55,884 nt of DNA. Source: an uncultured bacterium. GTDB taxonomy: Bacteria > Patescibacteriota > Gracilibacteria > Absconditabacterales > Absconditicoccaceae. Where the stretch lies: the NCBI GenBank assembly GCA_903918675.1, contig CAIXFE010000030.1, positions 1 through 55,884 of the forward strand, given 5' to 3'. Numbering within the stretch: position 1 is the stretch's first letter; every line of letters begins with the position of its first letter. The position numbers and the translations under genes are program-made. Positions 14,220 to 53,355 of this stretch are shown here, one piece after another. The notes beneath the pieces are model-generated. The model ran no database searches and was not told the DNA's origin. It was given only the letters and a program-made list of their open reading frames with translations.

Positions 14220-14618
14220 GAGAAATAATTATCAGCTAAAGGGTCTTTCTTGTATCATATAAAGTATACCGCTAAAAGTGCTATAAAGCAAAAAAAAATG
14301 CTTCTCCTCAGCCATTCGGATTGACAAAATCGCCAAAAATCGTACAGAATCGGCAAAAGTCGTACAAAATAGAGAAAACTCGTTGTTTAGTACCGCTGTT
14401 CCCCTTCGCGAAGGGGCCTCGGTCCAGCTTAGCTGGGGATCCCGCAGAGCGGGAGGGGGATTTAGATCCTCCGTCTCGCCTTCGCCTGCCTACCGGACAG
14501 GCAGGCTCGCCACCTCCTTTAAAAAAGGAGGACACAATTTTAAAAAACTCGTTGAAAGTACGAGTGATTTATATATCTACAATCTGTGATCTTTTAGTCT
14601 TTTAATCTTTGAATCCTG
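14220..14618. repeat. Repeat-dense spacer, no gene
   Basis: Contains a run of nested palindromes: ccccttcgcgaagggg (about 14401-14416), cagcttagctg, cccgcagagcggg, and GCCTGCCT/AGGCAGGC (14484-14506), then ctccttt/aaaggag. The aatcgccaaaaatcgtacagaatcgg words at 14328-14380 are degenerate tandems. A minus-strand ORF through the tract is only an open frame in repeats. This resembles a compound mobile repeat, parts of which recur at 8040-8110 and 28140. Confidence 0.7.
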
Positions 14619-24439: not shown

Positions 24440-26980
24440 TTAAACTCCTACTCTGAAATATATTTCTTTATCGACTAATTCTCTTTTGGTTCACCATTTC
24501 AGTGCGGAGATCTGTTTCATGATCTCTACTTTTTCTGGTGTATTGGGCTTAGGATCTTTATACGGTGTCCTTGCAGTAAAACTAAATGGTCTGGACTGTT
24601 GCTCTTCTATAGATACCTTCGCTACTCATTTAAATTGATCTGAGTTTACGATATCGTTTTGATTGAATTCAGGGGACATTTCCTTCTCGAGGAATTCTCC
24701 ATCAGGAGCACCCACCTTGAAGATAAACATCGTTCAGATGTTACCGAAGACCGTCTTGGAAAGATCTAATTCTCATGATAATCCTTTCTGCTTGAGCTGC
24801 TCGATATACTGATGGGCAATCGTCAATCCAAGTTTATATTTTCTGGCCTCTGATAAGATACTTTCGATGGATTTAGATACATAGTTCTGGAACTCATCGA
24901 TATACAGGAAGAAGGGGACCCTATCTTTGGGATCCATAGAAGCTCTTCTCAGTGCAGCTAATTTGATCTGCATCGTGACCATTCTACCGATCAACTGACT
25001 ATTGATTTCACCTGTCAAACCTTTGGCAAGTTTTACCAAAATAATTTTTCTTTCATTCATCGCATCGCCAAAATTGAATGCTGATCTTGGTTGTCAGATC
25101 ACATTTCTGATATACGTACCCGTCGTGAACGGACCGAATTTAGCCTGGATAAATGGGATGATCTCTGCTTTTTCTCTTTCACCCATTTTTTTATAGGTCT
25201 TATTCCACCGTGCGGCGATGACAGGATTTTTTACATTTCTAATTTTAGACTCTGCATATGCATCATCCGTAAACAGTCTCATGATATCTACGAGAGTTCA
25301 TCACTCAGGCTGTTCCATCAGGAGGAAACACGCGTTACGGAAGTAATCCTGGATACGTGGTCAGAAGATTTCTTCTCCATACATAGAGACAAACATCTCG
25401 ACCATATCATTTGTCAGGACATCTCTTTCATCTTCAGTATCTGCTCCATCGAGGGGATTAAACGCAATAGGATATTCAGTATTGGAAAGGTCGAAATAGA
25501 TCAGATCATCGATCCTTTCTTTGGGATAATGTTCCATGATGAAATCCACTGCGTCTCCATGCGGATCGATGAAACAGAAACCGTTGCCTTGTTTCATATC
25601 TTCCAAGGCCTCAGTCAGCATGATGGTTGTCTTACCCGTACCTGTCTGTCATAAGATATACAGATGCCTCATTCTATCTTTGGGTGTAATTCTGATCTCT
25701 TTTTTGATGCCGGCATACAGATTGTGTCCTACGAGGATACCTTCATCGGGTAAATTTTCTGGAGCAGCGACGATCTTAAATCTCTGCCACTGGATACGAG
25801 AACTTCTATTAAACTTAGAATTGGGGAAATGGATGATAGAGGAGAGCTCTTTCACATTGAGGATATTTTTCTTGCCAAAATCCTTGATATCATTCCATAA
25901 TCATTCCTTAGAAAAAAATAATCTCTGGACAAATTCTTTGGCAAAAGTCCTGATATGTTTAGATCTCCTAAAATGGAAATTATTAAGTCAAATATAGTTG
26001 TATTGAGTAAAACCTCTTGCGAGATCATTGATAATCTTCTCAGGTCTATCTGCTTCCGTCGAGGTCACCAATGCTCTGATCTTGACTGAGAACAATTCAT
26101 CTTCGACTTTCTTATCCAGGTCGCCGAGCTCTTGTTGAGAGAAAGCAAGTTTGCGTTCCTTATCAGTGGCCGCCGTATCATCCTTAGCATCGCTAGATGC
26201 AGCTCTGAAGATAGATTTCAGGACTCTGAAGAGACCAAATCCATGTTTACCTTCTTTGATATGTTCGATTTTCTTTCTTAGTTTTCTAGAATATCCTTCG
26301 GGGATAGGAGAGAGTAAAATTTGTAAGCTGAGTTTCTCATCTCTATTGGTCTTGGAGAATGCAGAGAGCAGACTCTCCATAGGATCGGCCTCGAAAGCAT
26401 CGTAAGTCTTGACTGGGAAGGCACTATCTTTCCCTAAGAAAAATTCTCCTCCTGCCATATATTTCCCCGCTTCCAAAAGTTTTGGTTGATCGACCTGTTC
26501 TACCACTGAGCCGATAAAGAACCCCGATATCATTTTCTCTACATTTTCTACGTGATCTTCTGGCACTCAGAAGATGAATTTGATCGCCTCCTTTTCGACC
26601 ATCACTTCTACACTCAGATAGTTTTCTCAGAAAAGGTAATTCTTGATTTTGTTTTTGTGATATCGTGTCCCTACAAGTTTATAGATCCAATTATCCTCAT
26701 GGATATTGTGTTCCTGGATGGAATATAAACTCTTATAGAGCTGGTTCATATATTGGATATTTTGTTTCACATTTTGGATAATATCCGTGATCTCTGATTC
26801 TGTAGATTTTCATACTCTCAGCTGTGGCATTTTGACTTTAAGATATTTGAACTTACTGACCTGCTGTTTTCTATGTCTATGGATCAGTGCCAAAACTATC
26901 AGTTTATAAAAAACATTTAATGCCAGCAGGATTAATCATATACCGATGAGAATGAGTACTATAAGCATATTATCGCTCAT
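24440..26980 (-). CDS. TraG/VirD4-like membrane ATPase
   Basis: 846 residues, ATG 26980 to TAA. The N-terminal TM segment (MLIVLILIGI-G-LILLALNV) is followed by a long region of unknown fold, then an AAA-type motor. Walker A reads Y-I-L-G-QTGTGKTT near residue 442, with its first Gly encoded by TGA 25649-25651. Walker B is FFLYIDEFQNYVS near 695. Such DUF87/TraG-like proteins couple DNA or protein substrates to secretion channels or pili. About thirteen TGA codons split it into five visible fragments in the standard code. No other conjugation or type IV genes are adjacent, so a conjugative role is not supported here; it may be a CPR-specific envelope motor. Confidence 0.88.
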
Positions 26981-26994
26981 ATATCTCTAGAATC

Positions 26995-27215
26995 GTTAAA
27001 GTGTTGAAGCGTTGAAACGATAAAGCGTTGAAACGTCTTGTCCTCCACCAAGGAGGTTTAAGCGTTTAGTCGTTTGGTCGCTTAGACGTTCTTATTATAT
27101 TCAAAATTCAGAAAATTGCAAATATTGGCTGGGGGTTGGTATATTGGTGTATTTGTATATTGGTGTATTGGTTTTGGCTCATTTCGCTTCCCAATAACCA
27201 ATTACCAATAACCAA
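26995..27215. repeat. Tandem repeat spacer
   Basis: gttgaaacg(a/t)taaagc tandems (about 27000-27035), gtttagtcgtttggtcgc (about 27062-27088), tattggtgtat repeats (about 27136-27170) and ccaataaccaatta repeats (27191-27218). The last set reaches the stop codon of cca. Confidence 0.8.
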
Positions 27216-29177
27216 TTACCCTTTCTTCTTCGCAAACGCTTTCAGATATCCAATGATCGCCTCTTTCTTATTCCTCTCCTTGATATCATCGATCACTCGA
27301 TTCATCGATTTTTCCAGTAATTCGCCGATCTTGGGTCATGCCGGCAATTTGAAATATTTCATAATCTCGGCGCCATCGATGGCGAGATCCTTCATAGTAA
27401 ATTGTCCTTCTTTCTTATGTAAGCGCTCCAAGACTTCCCTTAGCGCATACACATCGCTGATATCGCTGCTATTTTGCAGAGGATTGTATTGTCCCAATCT
27501 ATCAGCGATCGTGATATCTATGATGGTATGTACTTTTTCTTTCCCAGCCTCACTGAGAAATTTCCTCATATTCTTTTCGCTCTTTTCGGGGAGCGCGTAT
27601 AAAATTTCTTCCAACTTATGATGATGCGCAACCAACCGTGCAATCTCGTCAATCTCTTTCTTACTAAATCCAAGCTTCGCAAAATCTGTCTTCACATATT
27701 CAGCGCTGCTTCTTCTATGATTACGTGGCCCGGCCAAGATTTCCTTAATCTCTTCCTTGCTCAATCCCTCTTCATAAGCATCAAATTGATCCACTTTCCC
27801 AACATCATGATAGAGCATCGCGAGTCTCGCAAGATAATCTTTATTTATTTTCTGGAGCTCAAAAAGCGCGAGCAGCGTATGCGCATATACATCGAAAGGA
27901 TGGTATCTGACGGGTTGTTCCACGTTTTTCGTCTCCGCCAGCGCAGGGAAGAGGAGTGGGAGCAGTTTAGCTTCGTCTAGGAGGACGACTGCGACGAAAA
28001 GATCTCATTGAAGAGCTATTTTACAAAGTTCATCTTTGATCCTTTCTTTGGCAACATTGGCGACGAGTGGACTATTCTTCTTGATACTCACCCGGGTGTC
28101 CTTGATGAAATCAAAGAGAATAACGTTGGAATATGGGAGCCTGCCTACCGGACAGGCAGGTGTGGGAGCGTGGGAGCGTGAAACTTTCCCACCTTTCAAC
28201 CCTTCCACCTTCGCACTTTTCAATTTTGTATTCATCACACTCACAAATCTGATCGCTCTGATCATCCTCAGTGCATCTTCAGTGAATCTCTTATCCGGAT
28301 CACCAACGGCTCTGAGCTTCCTATGAATTAAATCTTGCAATCATTTATGGGGATCCAGTATGAATTTTCAATTTTTAATTTCTAATTTTCAATTTCACTT
28401 TTTTCTAGTTTGAACGATATGATTTTCAGTGAGTTGATTCATCAGATAGGGGAGTTCATCTTTATGAAATTTCCCATCAGCAAAAAGCTTCTTGATGATC
28501 TCATGACTCTGGAGGATAAATAAATTTTCATTACTTATATAGAGGTATCCATATTTGTTTAACTTAGCCACAAGTTCCTCATCATTGATTACTGAAACAT
28601 CCTTGCTCTCTGACACTTTTCAACCTTTCAACCTTTCAACCTTTCAACCCTCAAAGTAATACATACAATTGACGGTAAAGTCTCTCCTCATTGAATCCAA
28701 TAAAATATCATTGCTTCGCGTAATCTCACCCGGGTGGCGAGAGTCTTCATAGGCTCATTCGGTACGCAATGGAGTTAATTCATATTTAATCACTGAAGGA
28801 TCTGAGAAATGGTCTGATAAATCTGATAAATTGGCTAAGTCACATTCTTCAGCTTTTTCAGTGTTCTTTCAGATTTTTGATATTCAGGTTTTTGTTCCTC
28901 AGATTTTTCAGGATTTTTTCAGATTTTTCTGTATCAATGTAATAGTCCCAAATTTCTCCGTGATAAAATGAGACAATCATTTTTTATCGATTGATTTATA
29001 GATTGCATCCGGATTTCCAGCCATCGTAAAATCGATATCCGTAGGCGAGGTTTCCGTTCATAAAAGTAAATCCCTGACACAGCCACCGACCAAAAAAAAT
29101 GCATTCTGACTTTTTATCTTTTTCTGCAGAAAGCTGAGATGCTGATCTAATATATCTAATGATTCGAAGTGAAGCAT
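27216..29177 (-). CDS. cca: CCA-adding enzyme with in-frame repeat insertions
   Basis: tRNA nucleotidyltransferase that adds or repairs the 3' CCA end. It has 653 residues, ATG 29177 to TAA, against roughly 400-480 in the family. Conserved parts in order: FFLVGGCVRDLLLG, the catalytic TDIDFT, SMRRDFTVNCMYY, GLQDLIHRKLRAVGDPDKRF, TEDALRMIRAIRF, an HD-like domain (LAMLYHDVGKVDQF) and the C-terminal helices. Between them lie stretches whose DNA is dispersed repeat: KNLKKSGKIGGTKTG.. after the head, GGKVERLKGGKVSESKD, GNGKLEIKNGKF, and LKGGKVSRSHAPTPACPVGR. The frame is open for 654 codons only with UGA = Gly (more than ten TGA). A fusion of separate genes is unlikely because the motif order is that of one enzyme. 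Confidence 0.9.
28130..28225. repeat. Compound repeat inside cca
   Basis: GCCTGCCT/AGGCAGGT palindrome (about 28140-28160), then gtgggagcgtgggagcg, then ccacctttcaacccttccacc. The order palindrome plus cccac/gtggg words matches intergenic copies at 37681-37740 and 14484. It encodes part of VEGLKGGKVSRSHAPTPACP. Confidence 0.8.
28617..28650. repeat. 8-nt tandem repeat inside cca
   Basis: Four or more copies of caaccttt (minus strand: ggttgaaa). An 8-nt period passes through all three frames and gives the 8-residue cycle GKVERLKG, with one UGA per cycle. Confidence 0.9.
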
Positions 29178-49068: not shown

Positions 49069-52000
49069 ATGAAAGTCTTAAGAAGAATCAAAAAACACAC
49101 TACATCTGCGATCAAGCATTTTCGTACACATGGCCATAAATATGCAGGCTGAATGTTTGCATGATTTGCTGTAGTCAAAGCATTTTTCGTGATCGCTGGA
49201 TTTTTTGGTCTTGTCGGTCTTGGACATACCTTTGCTCAGACTCCCGCAGATTTGATAGCGCAATATTATGGACCGACATCTACATATACCACAAATCGAG
49301 TATCAAATACTTGTGACACAAGTGCTATGCAAGTGATCGAGATCGCAGACAATACCTGATGGCAAACATTACTTTCTTTGTCAGGGTATGGCTTAGCGGC
49401 TAATACCCTCTATGTGCTAGATTCTGGTAATTACACTCTGTATTCTCAGTTGTATGATAATAATTGTACCGCAATCATAGGAAGTGGAACTGTGCAGATA
49501 CAGGCAGTAGGCATGTGATCGTCATTATCTTTGCTCTACGCAAATTCAAAACAGAATATGATCGTGGACAATATAAAATTGAAAGGAGAAGTGCCGGGAG
49601 TGGCGACATCATTCGGGATAAATATAGAGGGTGTTCAAAGTAATACTATTAGTGGTACTGAGATATCCGCAGTGGACTATGGGATTAGGATCAACTCCTA
49701 TTCTCATGACAACACCATCAATAACGACGTCGTGCATAATATCAATAACTATGGAATATTTATCAGGAGTTATGGATACAACAATATTATCAAGAACTGT
49801 TCCGTATATAGTGTTGGACAAAACTGAATCATCGTAAATGATCATTCGACAAACAATATCGTGGAAAATTGTGACGTGCACAACAATTACTATGGTATCC
49901 ATCTCTCCATGACATCAGCAAACAATATCATCAGGAATGATAATTCCTATAGCAATACACAGTATGGCATATATATAGACAGTTCATCCAATGCCCTCAT
50001 TGACTCAGTCCAAACGCACGATAATGCCAGTGTGGGGATCTATTTTTCTTCTTCGCCCTATGGTATAGTCAACAATGCTCAGAGTTATAATAATTCCTCA
50101 GTCGGTATCTATTTCTATTACTCATCAACGGGTACGGTAAATAATTCTTGGAGCCATAATGATAGCTACGGGATCTATTTTGATAATTCATCATTTGGTA
50201 CGGTAAATAATTCTCAAGTAGCCAATAGCGTCAACAATGGAATTGATTTCAATGTATCATCAAACGGCGTCGTCAATAATGCTCAGAGTTATAATAATAC
50301 CGGAATCGGTATCTATTTCTATACAGCGCCCTATGGTGTGGTCAACAATACCCAAAGTTACAACAATTCGACTGGAATATCCTTCAATGCATCATCATAC
50401 GGAGTACTCAACAATGTTCAGAGTTATAATAATAATGGATATGGAATATCAGTCGTAAACTCCCCATCAGGAGTAGTTAACAATATCCAAAGTTATAATA
50501 ATGCAAGCTATGGACTGTACGTGGATGCAGCATCGACTAATAGTAAATATTATGGTGCTATCAAACTTTTTGGCAATACTCCAAGCAATTTCGGATGAAC
50601 ACTCACTAACTTACTGACAGGAAACAATGGCCTAGTAGGTTGGAGTAATGGAACAGTAGATCTGACTCCGGCAGTCTCGCGAGATTATCTGACCAACCCA
50701 CTGAATCTTTCAGGTAAATATCTTTTGGGCCGATCATGAAGCTTTACGAGTCTGAGAGGAAAAATTGCGACATTTGTCTACGCATCAGGCATGCAATATA
50801 GTTATGGAAGCTGAATCTTAGCACAGGGGCAGCCCGTACTTTATAGTGGCACGACACTGATAGCATCATGAACATTTACATGAACGAATTATATCTGAGG
50901 TACGACGTTGATCATCACGGGAAATCTTTCAGGAGTGAATACTTATAGTCCAAATGCTAATATCCCTATCTCCAGTACGGTAAGCGACCCCGCTAGTATG
51001 TACAATATTTATGGAGATGTGAAGCCCTTCATTACCGCAAGGGAAAATAATGAAACAATCCGGATTACACTTTCCGGCTGATTAACCACAGATAGAGTGG
51101 TTATCCAAATGTATGATCCTATAAATTATTTTGCGACACACTTTGAGAAAGATACGCATGTCGATATGCTGGCGCCCACGCTTCCTACCTTACTTTCGCC
51201 AGCAAGTGGAACAATAGTTACGACAGGAACGATTTCATTCTCACGAAGTGGATCGATCGATACGGGCGCATGATTGAGTGGCTACTCCTATCAAGTGAGT
51301 AGAGACGCATGATTTACTAATCTGGTGTCTTCATGAACGACAGTAATGACAGGAATTTCTCTGACAGGAATCTCAAATGGAGTGCTTTATCGAAGAGTCT
51401 CTGCCTATGATGTTTTGGGAAATGTTTCAGCACGAAGTACTCTCCGAAATGTCGTGATTTCATCTGCGGTACCAACATCACCAGATTTGCTTTCTCCAGT
51501 AAGTGGAACAATAGTTACCACATGAGCGATTTCATTTTTACGAAGTTGATCTATTGATACAGGGGCAGTAGTAAGCTGATATCTCTATCAAGTGAGTAGC
51601 GATTTATGATTCACCAATATCTTATATACATGAATGACAGCAATGACAGGCATTTCTCTGGACTGATTCATGGATGGAGACTATTATCGAAGAGCGCTTG
51701 CATATGATACGATGGGCAACACCTGATCACGAAGTTCAGGCCAAAACTTTCTCGTCGATACGACCGCACCCACCATTCCAGATTTACTTTCTCCAGCAAG
51801 TGGAACAATACTTACTACATGAGCAATTGATTTCCTTCGAAGTGGAGCAATCGATACAGGGGCATGATTGAGTGATTATATGGTCCAGGTAAGTAGAGAC
51901 TCATGATTTACAGATATGATCATCTCATGAAATACTTCAGCGACCGGGATCTCTGTGATAGAATTTCCTGATGGAATATATTATCGAAGGATCTCCGCAT

Positions 52001-53355
52001 ATGACGCAGTAGGCAATACTTGATCACGAAGTGATACATGGAATCTTTTGGTCGATACGACCGCACCAACCATTCCAGAATTACTTTCACCGACGAGTGG
52101 AACAATATTCGGCACATGAACAATATCTTTTTTACGAAGTTGATCCATCGATACAGGGGCAGGATTGAGCTGATATCTCTATCAAGTGAGCAGCGATTCA
52201 TGATTCACAAATTTTATATCTTCATGAACGACATCACTGACATGAATTTCTCTGCCATCATTCACTGATGGAACTTTCTATCGGAGAGTCTCTGCTTTCG
52301 ATGACGTCGGGAATACTTGAGCACGAAGCTCGGGATGAAGCTTTTTCATCGATACTACAGCACCCACAATACCAGAATTACTTTCTCCAAGCAGTGCAAC
52401 GATATTTACGACATGATCGATTGATTTAGTTCGAAGCTGAGGAATCGATACAGGAGCGGGAATGAGCGGCTATCTTTTCCAGGTGAGTAGAGACTCATGA
52501 TTCACAGATATGATCATCTCATGAAATACTTCAGCTACAGGTATCTCTGTAATAGAATTTCCTGATGGAAATTATTATCGAAGAATTTCCGCTTATGATG
52601 CCGTAGGGAATACCTGATCACGAAGTACAGGACGAAATTTTATTGTGAACACCACGACCACGAATAGCGGAACTATTATACCTCCATCAGTACCAACCTG
52701 ATGATGAGGCATCATACTGAGTAAAGATATTTGTCCAGCTCAGAGAGATTGTTCATCCAGTTATTACGACCATATTTGCTGACCATGTCCGAGCACAGGT
52801 ACTCATACCAGCGCGCCTACATCATGAAATATTCAAGGATCTCACTATTCCGATGAATTTAATATCGCATACCAGCGATCCTATGCAAATGGCATCACAA
52901 CCATTCCAACCATACAGCAAGCAAATATCAACGGGAAAGTAACCAGAGAACAACTGGCAAAGATGATCACACAATATGCAGTCAAGGTAATGAAGAAAAA
53001 GGTCGACACAAAATTATCTTGTTCATTCCCTGACATCATTCACGAATCAGCTGAGATGCAATTTTATATCAAGACCTCATGTCAACTTGGTTTGATGGGA
53101 CGAGAGGCCGATGGGCTAAGTATCAAGAAGTCGTTTGATCCTAAGCAGAACGTGACGAGAGCTCAATTTAGTACTGTAGTATCTAGGATGCTCTATGGTG
53201 AGAAATATAATACGAAAAACTTCCTACTGTGGTATGCAAGACATTTACAAGCACTCCATACCGCAGGGATCATCAACGATATTAACAAACCAAGTGCTGA
53301 CGAACTCAGATGATATATTATGCTGATATTACGAAGGACGACAAAATGAAATTAA
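49069..53355 (+). CDS. Giant secreted beta-helix/Ig-repeat/SLH protein
   Basis: 1428 residues, ATG 49069 to TAA 53353-53355; no TAA or TAG interrupts the frame. Order: basic N-terminus and signal peptide (FFVIAGFFGLVGLG, cleavage near TFAQT); a NosD-type parallel beta-helix (about 150-510) built of YGIYFD-NSSFGTVNNSQ repeats; a linker domain; five tandem Ig-like repeats of about 95 residues (about 700-1190; consensus LLSPASGTI and GSIDTGAGLSGY); a cysteine cluster (CPAQRDCSSSYYDHICGPCP); and C-terminal SLH-like modules (VTREQLAKMITQYA, VTRAQFSTVVSRML, ending DELRGYIMLILRR). Likely a cell-surface or S-layer-bound adhesin, possibly used for host contact. It has more than 50 TGA glycines, including three in a row at 52699-52707. 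Confidence 0.9.

Follow-up and report, generated by a model that had tools for sequence, protein, structure and literature searches.

Tandem repeats with a 7- or 8-nucleotide step in loops of a CCA-adding enzyme and other housekeeping proteins of an uncultured Absconditicoccaceae bacterium

How an enzyme can hold several in-frame tracts of the repeats that occupy the spacers of its genome, and still retain its conserved motifs, is the question raised by the cca gene of an uncultured bacterium of the Absconditicoccaceae (Patescibacteriota; assembly GCA_903918675.1). The gene lies on contig CAIXFE010000030.1, of which positions 1 to 55,884, the whole stretch analyzed, are referred to as the window. 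An earlier reading based on the letters alone (the sequence-only reading) had described the encoded CCA-adding enzyme as invaded by at least four repeat tracts after the manner of Rickettsia palindromic elements (RPE). All four tracts are present where it had placed them, far beyond chance expectation. In this genome we find short tandem arrays whose unit length is 7 or 8 nucleotides (nt), built of words that are specific to it and differ between species; in genes, such tracts are placed in loops and make use of UGA as a glycine codon.

The CCA-adding enzyme and its repeat tracts

The features of the gene are as follows.
27216-29177, minus strand: cca, class II CCA-adding enzyme, translated as 653 amino acids (aa) under genetic code 25, with 15 in-frame TGA codons (Gly)
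28791-28925, minus strand: site A (aa 85-129), in a beta-hairpin turn, with CTGA words that give way to inverted TCAG words; 4 in-frame TGA
28618-28649, minus strand: site B1, (GGTTGAAA)4, translated GGKVERLKGG; 2 in-frame TGA
28407-28601, minus strand: middle of the site-B insert (aa ~193-257), family-wide, non-repeat and conserved
28363-28403, minus strand: site B2, AATTNNA heptads, translated KKGNGKLEIKNGK; 3 in-frame TGA
28128-28223, minus strand: site C (aa 319-350), degenerate NNNTKGAA octads, inverted CCCAC octads, then a GC palindrome
28140-28160, no strand assigned: palindromic 21-mer CCTGCCTACCGGACAGGCAGG, with four exact copies in the genome, two of them within the window

The identity of the gene product is supported by its Pfam domains (PolyA_pol, PolyA_pol_RNAbd, HD and tRNA_NucTran2_2) and by its AlphaFold model, for which the top Foldseek match in the PDB was the CCA-adding enzyme 6qy6 (E 1.6e-12) and all 43 matches at E <= 0.001 were structures of CCA-adding or related tRNA nucleotidyltransferases. 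The protein possesses the nucleotidyltransferase head motifs, the neck motif ED.LR..R and the HD domain of class II enzymes. Of the 48 other family genomes, 45 contain an orthologue, and 111 alignment columns are invariant among 17 orthologues, including GG..R, D.D, RRDF..N, EDALR..R and the HD box, which bears out the claim that the conserved motifs are intact. The claim that the enzyme is about 200 residues longer than usual holds only against distant CCA enzymes, i.e. solved structures of 404-420 aa and relatives from the same class that use code 11 (~395-503 aa, as open frames). As full-length orthologues within the family mostly measure 568-631 aa, the excess over its kin is about 60 aa rather than 200. 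Similarly, the excess consists of repeat blocks only in part. The largest block, located between the RRDF..N and I.DP strands, is an insert that the alignment shows in all family members. Repeats merely flank its edges, while its middle is conserved family protein with 74% aa identity to the closest relative, G005, differences being chiefly at third codon positions.

In the model, which was built from 25 sequences, the predicted local distance difference test score (pLDDT) drops below 50 at residues 1-5, 87-125, 179-203, 205-228, 245-268 and 326-346 and is mostly high elsewhere. The tracts coincide with stretches of this kind between well-folded elements, and are thus predicted to occupy disordered loops: a hairpin turn, both edges of the family insert, and an inter-helix loop, the last being site C, which is modeled between helices 303-328 and 359-367. 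Sites A and C are loops of species-variable length, and that at site A ranges from 5 to 36 aa among relatives of the genus. At the position of B2, G005 cca carries ACGTNNA instead of AATTNNA heptads; the octads of site C take the form NNNTKGAA in both species but, as read by eye, differ in their first letters. Relatives with non-repeat DNA at the same blocks, which the sequence-only reading had named as evidence against itself, were thus encountered in part, as the corresponding positions are variable loops of which some hold non-repeat DNA and some hold other repeats. Sequence comparison and modeling together support its central view, that tracts of the genome's spacer type probably reside within loops of an intact enzyme. 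Two further observations concern the orthologues. G005 cca (L031, 6001-8016) contains an extra 24-aa insert close to its N-terminus, ahead of the FLVGG strand, which is unique among the aligned species, and in a genome of a different genus (G047, locus L008) the site C loop contains IPLGFAVSPFKKGEQ, which looks like a translated repeat of another type.

Arrays of period 7 and 8 across the genome and in other genes

The genome was sampled over 505 kb in stretches (the window and L033-L072). Arrays of the period-7/8 type occupy 1579 bases per 100 kb of the genome, compared to 29 in a first-order Markov re-creation. A lag test yielded 26.3 arrays per 100 kb at period 7 and 15.2 at period 8; a second-order Markov re-creation gave 0.2 and 0.0, and the remaining periods between 4 and 13 gave 0-3.2. 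For periods 7 and 8, the other genomes of the genus yield 14.2 and 2.3, the family's other genera 0.8 and 0.8, and class members using code 11 yield 3.0 and 1.2; in the latter two groups periods 9 and 12, expected for coding repeats, are commoner. The 258 arrays of the sample use 69 heptad and 50 octad consensus words, 119 distinct words in all, and 161 arrays of period 7 were counted in the 505 kb. Hence the constant feature of the arrays is the unit length, and the word is variable. One word is this genome's own: three units of GTTGAAAN occur at four sites here and find no match in 191 other genomes of the phylum, which does not support the idea that it is a widespread patescibacterial repeat. 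At three of these sites, located in LysRS, cca (site B1) and GyrA, the coding strand carries the word in frame.

Arrays cover 8.5% of spacer bases but 0.6% of coding bases. In the spacers of L043 (11070-11150 and 3420-3457), heptad and octad arrays are followed by inverted copies that form very long hairpins. Within open reading frames (ORFs), 56 arrays of period 7 or 8 were found, and 24 of the 283 ORFs of >= 200 aa bear at least one. The most array-rich ORF of the sample encodes 770 aa with an exonuclease domain (L040, 5284-7596) and holds five separate 7/8-nt arrays in both orientations. As cca ranks third by array bases, the possibility that it is a special target was discarded. Two points go beyond the sequence-only reading, namely that like tracts occur in many other genes and that the stop codon of cca is itself supplied by a heptad array of the 3' spacer (27188-27220). 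The arrays at this end of the gene are:
27184-27230, no strand assigned: heptad array CCAATAA/CCAATTA over the cca 3' end, providing the gene's final Gly and stop codons
26990-27177, no strand assigned: octad arrays of the downstream spacer, with GTTGAANC, GTTTAGTC and TTGGTATA words and a CCTCC..GGAGG hairpin

Several of the array-bearing ORFs are housekeeping genes according to Pfam. Besides cca, the genes with tracts include those encoding LysRS, TopA, PheT, Dus and AckA, and, beyond the 505-kb sample, GyrA. LysRS contains VEMLKGGKVERL octads at aa 536-552 which are missing from all seven orthologues of the genus, and PheT a 30-aa insert of CTGA/TCAG words as in cca site A which is missing from all six relatives. 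In TopA, the in-frame tract is absent or replaced in sister species. Dus has no insert in three species, AATTGAA heptads in two, and AATGCAG-type heptads followed by inverted ones in another two. One loop of AckA holds, depending on the species, either heptads (ACTAATT or AATTACG) or octads (GAAAAATT or TTGAAAGA). Finally, five relatives have a clearly shorter GyrA loop, and a decayed octad tract is retained in G005. Because of this decayed form, it appears from the sequences that tracts can pass by inheritance and then decay.

Elsewhere in the window, the product of the gene adjoining cca (24440-26980) is similar to type IV secretion coupling proteins (TrwB/TraG-like). A 1428-aa ORF (49069-53355, code 25) with parallel beta-helix-like repeats contains about five 297-bp tandem units (51190-52631, ~70% matches) and probably encodes a large surface protein.

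Origin of the arrays and the role of UGA as a glycine codon

We consider it probable (about 0.62) that a fixed-step array-making process of 7 or 8 nt acts genome-wide and that selection retains its products in genes only within disordered loops. According to this explanation, a process in this genome, and more weakly in the genus, would write short tandem arrays of variable words into spacers and genes alike. Spacer and gene arrays would then be products of one process, for which a fixed-step, slippage-like error of DNA synthesis is the simplest guess. Since neither 7 nor 8 is divisible by 3, a regular tract encodes the same cyclic peptide of 7 or 8 residues in each frame of a strand. As all frames read this one peptide, a stop-free word is harmless anywhere, provided that the total length stays a multiple of three. 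Selection would purge genic tracts except in disordered protein loops, where they might persist, decay and be replaced by other words, and cca would simply be an enzyme with four tolerant loops. The loops within genes would be translated and near neutral.

The reassignment of UGA to Gly may widen this tolerance. As neither 8 nor 7 shares a factor with 3, at least three tandem units of GGTTGAAA or AATTGAA contain a TGA in every frame of the strand; such words would be nonsense in the standard code, and under code 25 would be read as hydrophilic Gly/Lys/Glu linkers. Within cca, 9 of the 15 TGA codons fall into the 109 repeat residues among 653 (Fisher p 1.5e-4). TGA accounts for 30 of 663 codons in genic arrays, compared to 2637 of 147429 (1.8%) overall. 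Among the 27 interior arrays of ORFs of >= 200 aa, 15 cross a TGA and require code 25, and in 21 the coding strand yields the more hydrophilic peptide of the two strands. The effect is moderate when spacer arrays are considered, which have on average 2.16 open frames out of six under code 25 and 1.69 under code 11. The recoding effect is thus real for TGA words and modest overall. Class members using code 11 were dropped as an array-rich comparison for this effect, as they hold too few 7/8-nt arrays. A bolder version, in which a genus-specific array-writing activity keeps rewriting the same disordered loops of essential enzymes, using new words in each species, and UGA as Gly renders its commonest words translatable and so acts as a shield that lets repeats colonize housekeeping genes, is put forward tentatively and appears doubtful at present. 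What makes the system of interest is that non-triplet genomic repeats reside in essential cytosolic enzymes, recurrently in the same loops, with a tolerance linked to a reassigned stop codon. It renders testable what fixes the step of 7/8 nt in the heptad and octad arrays of bacteria, and whether reassigning a codon alters which mutations genomes survive.

In favor of the genome-wide process proposed here, 60% of the array residues in six genes lie within 3 residues of an indel among other species, compared to 10% of the remaining residues. Several observations weigh against it. The residue-level test just mentioned treats neighbors as independent, and its p value should not be read at face value. 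The 30-aa insert and the third array of PheT and the second array of AckA sit where the lengths of sister proteins do not vary. The disorder of the cca loops is based on a single AlphaFold run with a shallow alignment, and few homologues also lower pLDDT. Site A of cca is composed of irregularly spaced CTGA words and contains no 7/8-nt array. The 21-mer palindrome CCTGCCTACCGGACAGGCAGG is a fixed sequence that looks dispersed rather than made in place, and might be an exception spread by another route. Its second exact copy within the window resides in a spacer (14380-14540) that contains several distinct GC-rich hairpins. The GyrA array, being common to this genome and, in decayed form, to G005, indicates that some tracts are older than the species split and that turnover is not always fast. 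Lastly, the genome is known as a metagenome bin of 123 contigs with 5% contamination.

Among the alternatives, ordinary slippage might have expanded low-complexity loops in each gene independently of the spacer repeats. The numerous consensus words would fit such growth, as would the fact that loops bearing tracts vary in length anyway. However, the genome's own word GTTGAAAN recurs in GyrA, LysRS and cca, and genic tracts share the period of 7 or 8 with the spacers, while other genera peak at 9 and 12. We therefore regard this explanation as unlikely.

Mobile palindromic elements copied in frame into genes, whether RPE-like or resembling repetitive extragenic palindromes (REP) or miniature inverted-repeat transposable elements (MITE), would account for the strong folding of cca site A (fold z -4.06), for arrays followed by inverted arrays in cca sites A and C, in Dus of G001 and G005 and in the L043 spacers, and for the four exact copies of the palindromic 21-mer. 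As a class, however, the arrays show no better folding than spacers devoid of arrays (mean z -0.71 for spacer arrays, -1.47 for array-free spacers), which rules out the hairpin as a shared feature and leaves it to single cases. No common element emerges from the 119 consensus words. The Y1 transposase, of the family that moves REP-type palindromes, is just a 94-aa fragment here and missing in five of nine genomes of the genus, including the array-rich G006; as its presence does not track array load, it was rejected as the mover. On these three grounds an invasion by a palindromic element, as the sequence-only reading had proposed, is quite unlikely.

That the inserts are lineage-specific functional domains would suit the middle of site B (aa 193-257), found throughout the family, but is highly improbable for the four repeat stretches, which are 30-45% identical between this genome and G005, compared to 72-87% for the remainder of the protein. 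An assembly or binning artefact, which the fragmented and partly contaminated bin might suggest, can practically be dismissed, as roughly twelve tracts, spread over seven conserved genes, leave the frames open and tracts recur in the same loops of sister genomes from other bins, one of them from Lac Pavin (L031).

Comparison with known repeat systems

Other repeats share parts of this behavior. Heptameric simple sequence repeats (SSR), or short tandemly repeated repetitive sequences (STRR), of Nostoc, Calothrix and Xanthomonas are fixed G-rich heptads residing mostly in spacers and under-represented in coding regions (PMC4692102). Similarly, the arrays described here are genome-wide and enriched in spacers. 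They are scarcer in genes, but comprise octads as well as heptads, many words instead of a few fixed ones, and in-frame genic copies. Intragenic repeats are also known from a relative using code 25, the PTD gene of a Gracilibacterium (PMC6851277). That case involves one gene with a 9-mer unit, divisible by three, in which TGA is unused, whereas here the units are not divisible by three, many genes are affected and TGA is used. In ciliates, reassignment of TAA/TAG to Gln is associated with Q-rich motifs (PMC10942620), another link between codon reassignment and expanded flexible protein stretches, although in eukaryotes and without 7/8-nt arrays of the spacer type. Earlier reports of such arrays in Absconditabacteria or Patescibacteria were not found in a literature search outside of which most subscription papers lay.

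The closest parallels are provided by two other systems. The amino-acid tandem repeats (aaTRs) of Borg extrachromosomal elements are likewise genome-specific, occur in spacers and ORFs and yield disordered protein stretches, but their in-ORF units are all divisible by three (PMC9879509). Here, the units are degenerate and of 7 or 8 nt, as in all 56 in-ORF arrays of these periods, and they reside in essential cytosolic enzymes. RPE are families of ~150 bp, each with a conserved encoded peptide, that are found between genes and in frame within unrelated housekeeping genes, whose proteins are apparently preserved (PMC10969869). The likeness to RPE drawn by the sequence-only reading stands with respect to placement, as in-frame copies occur in cca, LysRS, GyrA, TopA, PheT, Dus and AckA as well as in spacers. 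It fails with respect to palindromy and fixed sequence: most tracts measure 30-60 nt and consist of 7/8-nt words which vary by locus and species; apart from single cases such as cca site A, the tracts do not generally form a folding palindrome, and no recurring conserved family of ~150 bp is found among the 258 arrays. RPE are therefore nearest in behavior and Borg repeats nearest in effect, while the arrays of this genome lack defining features of both.
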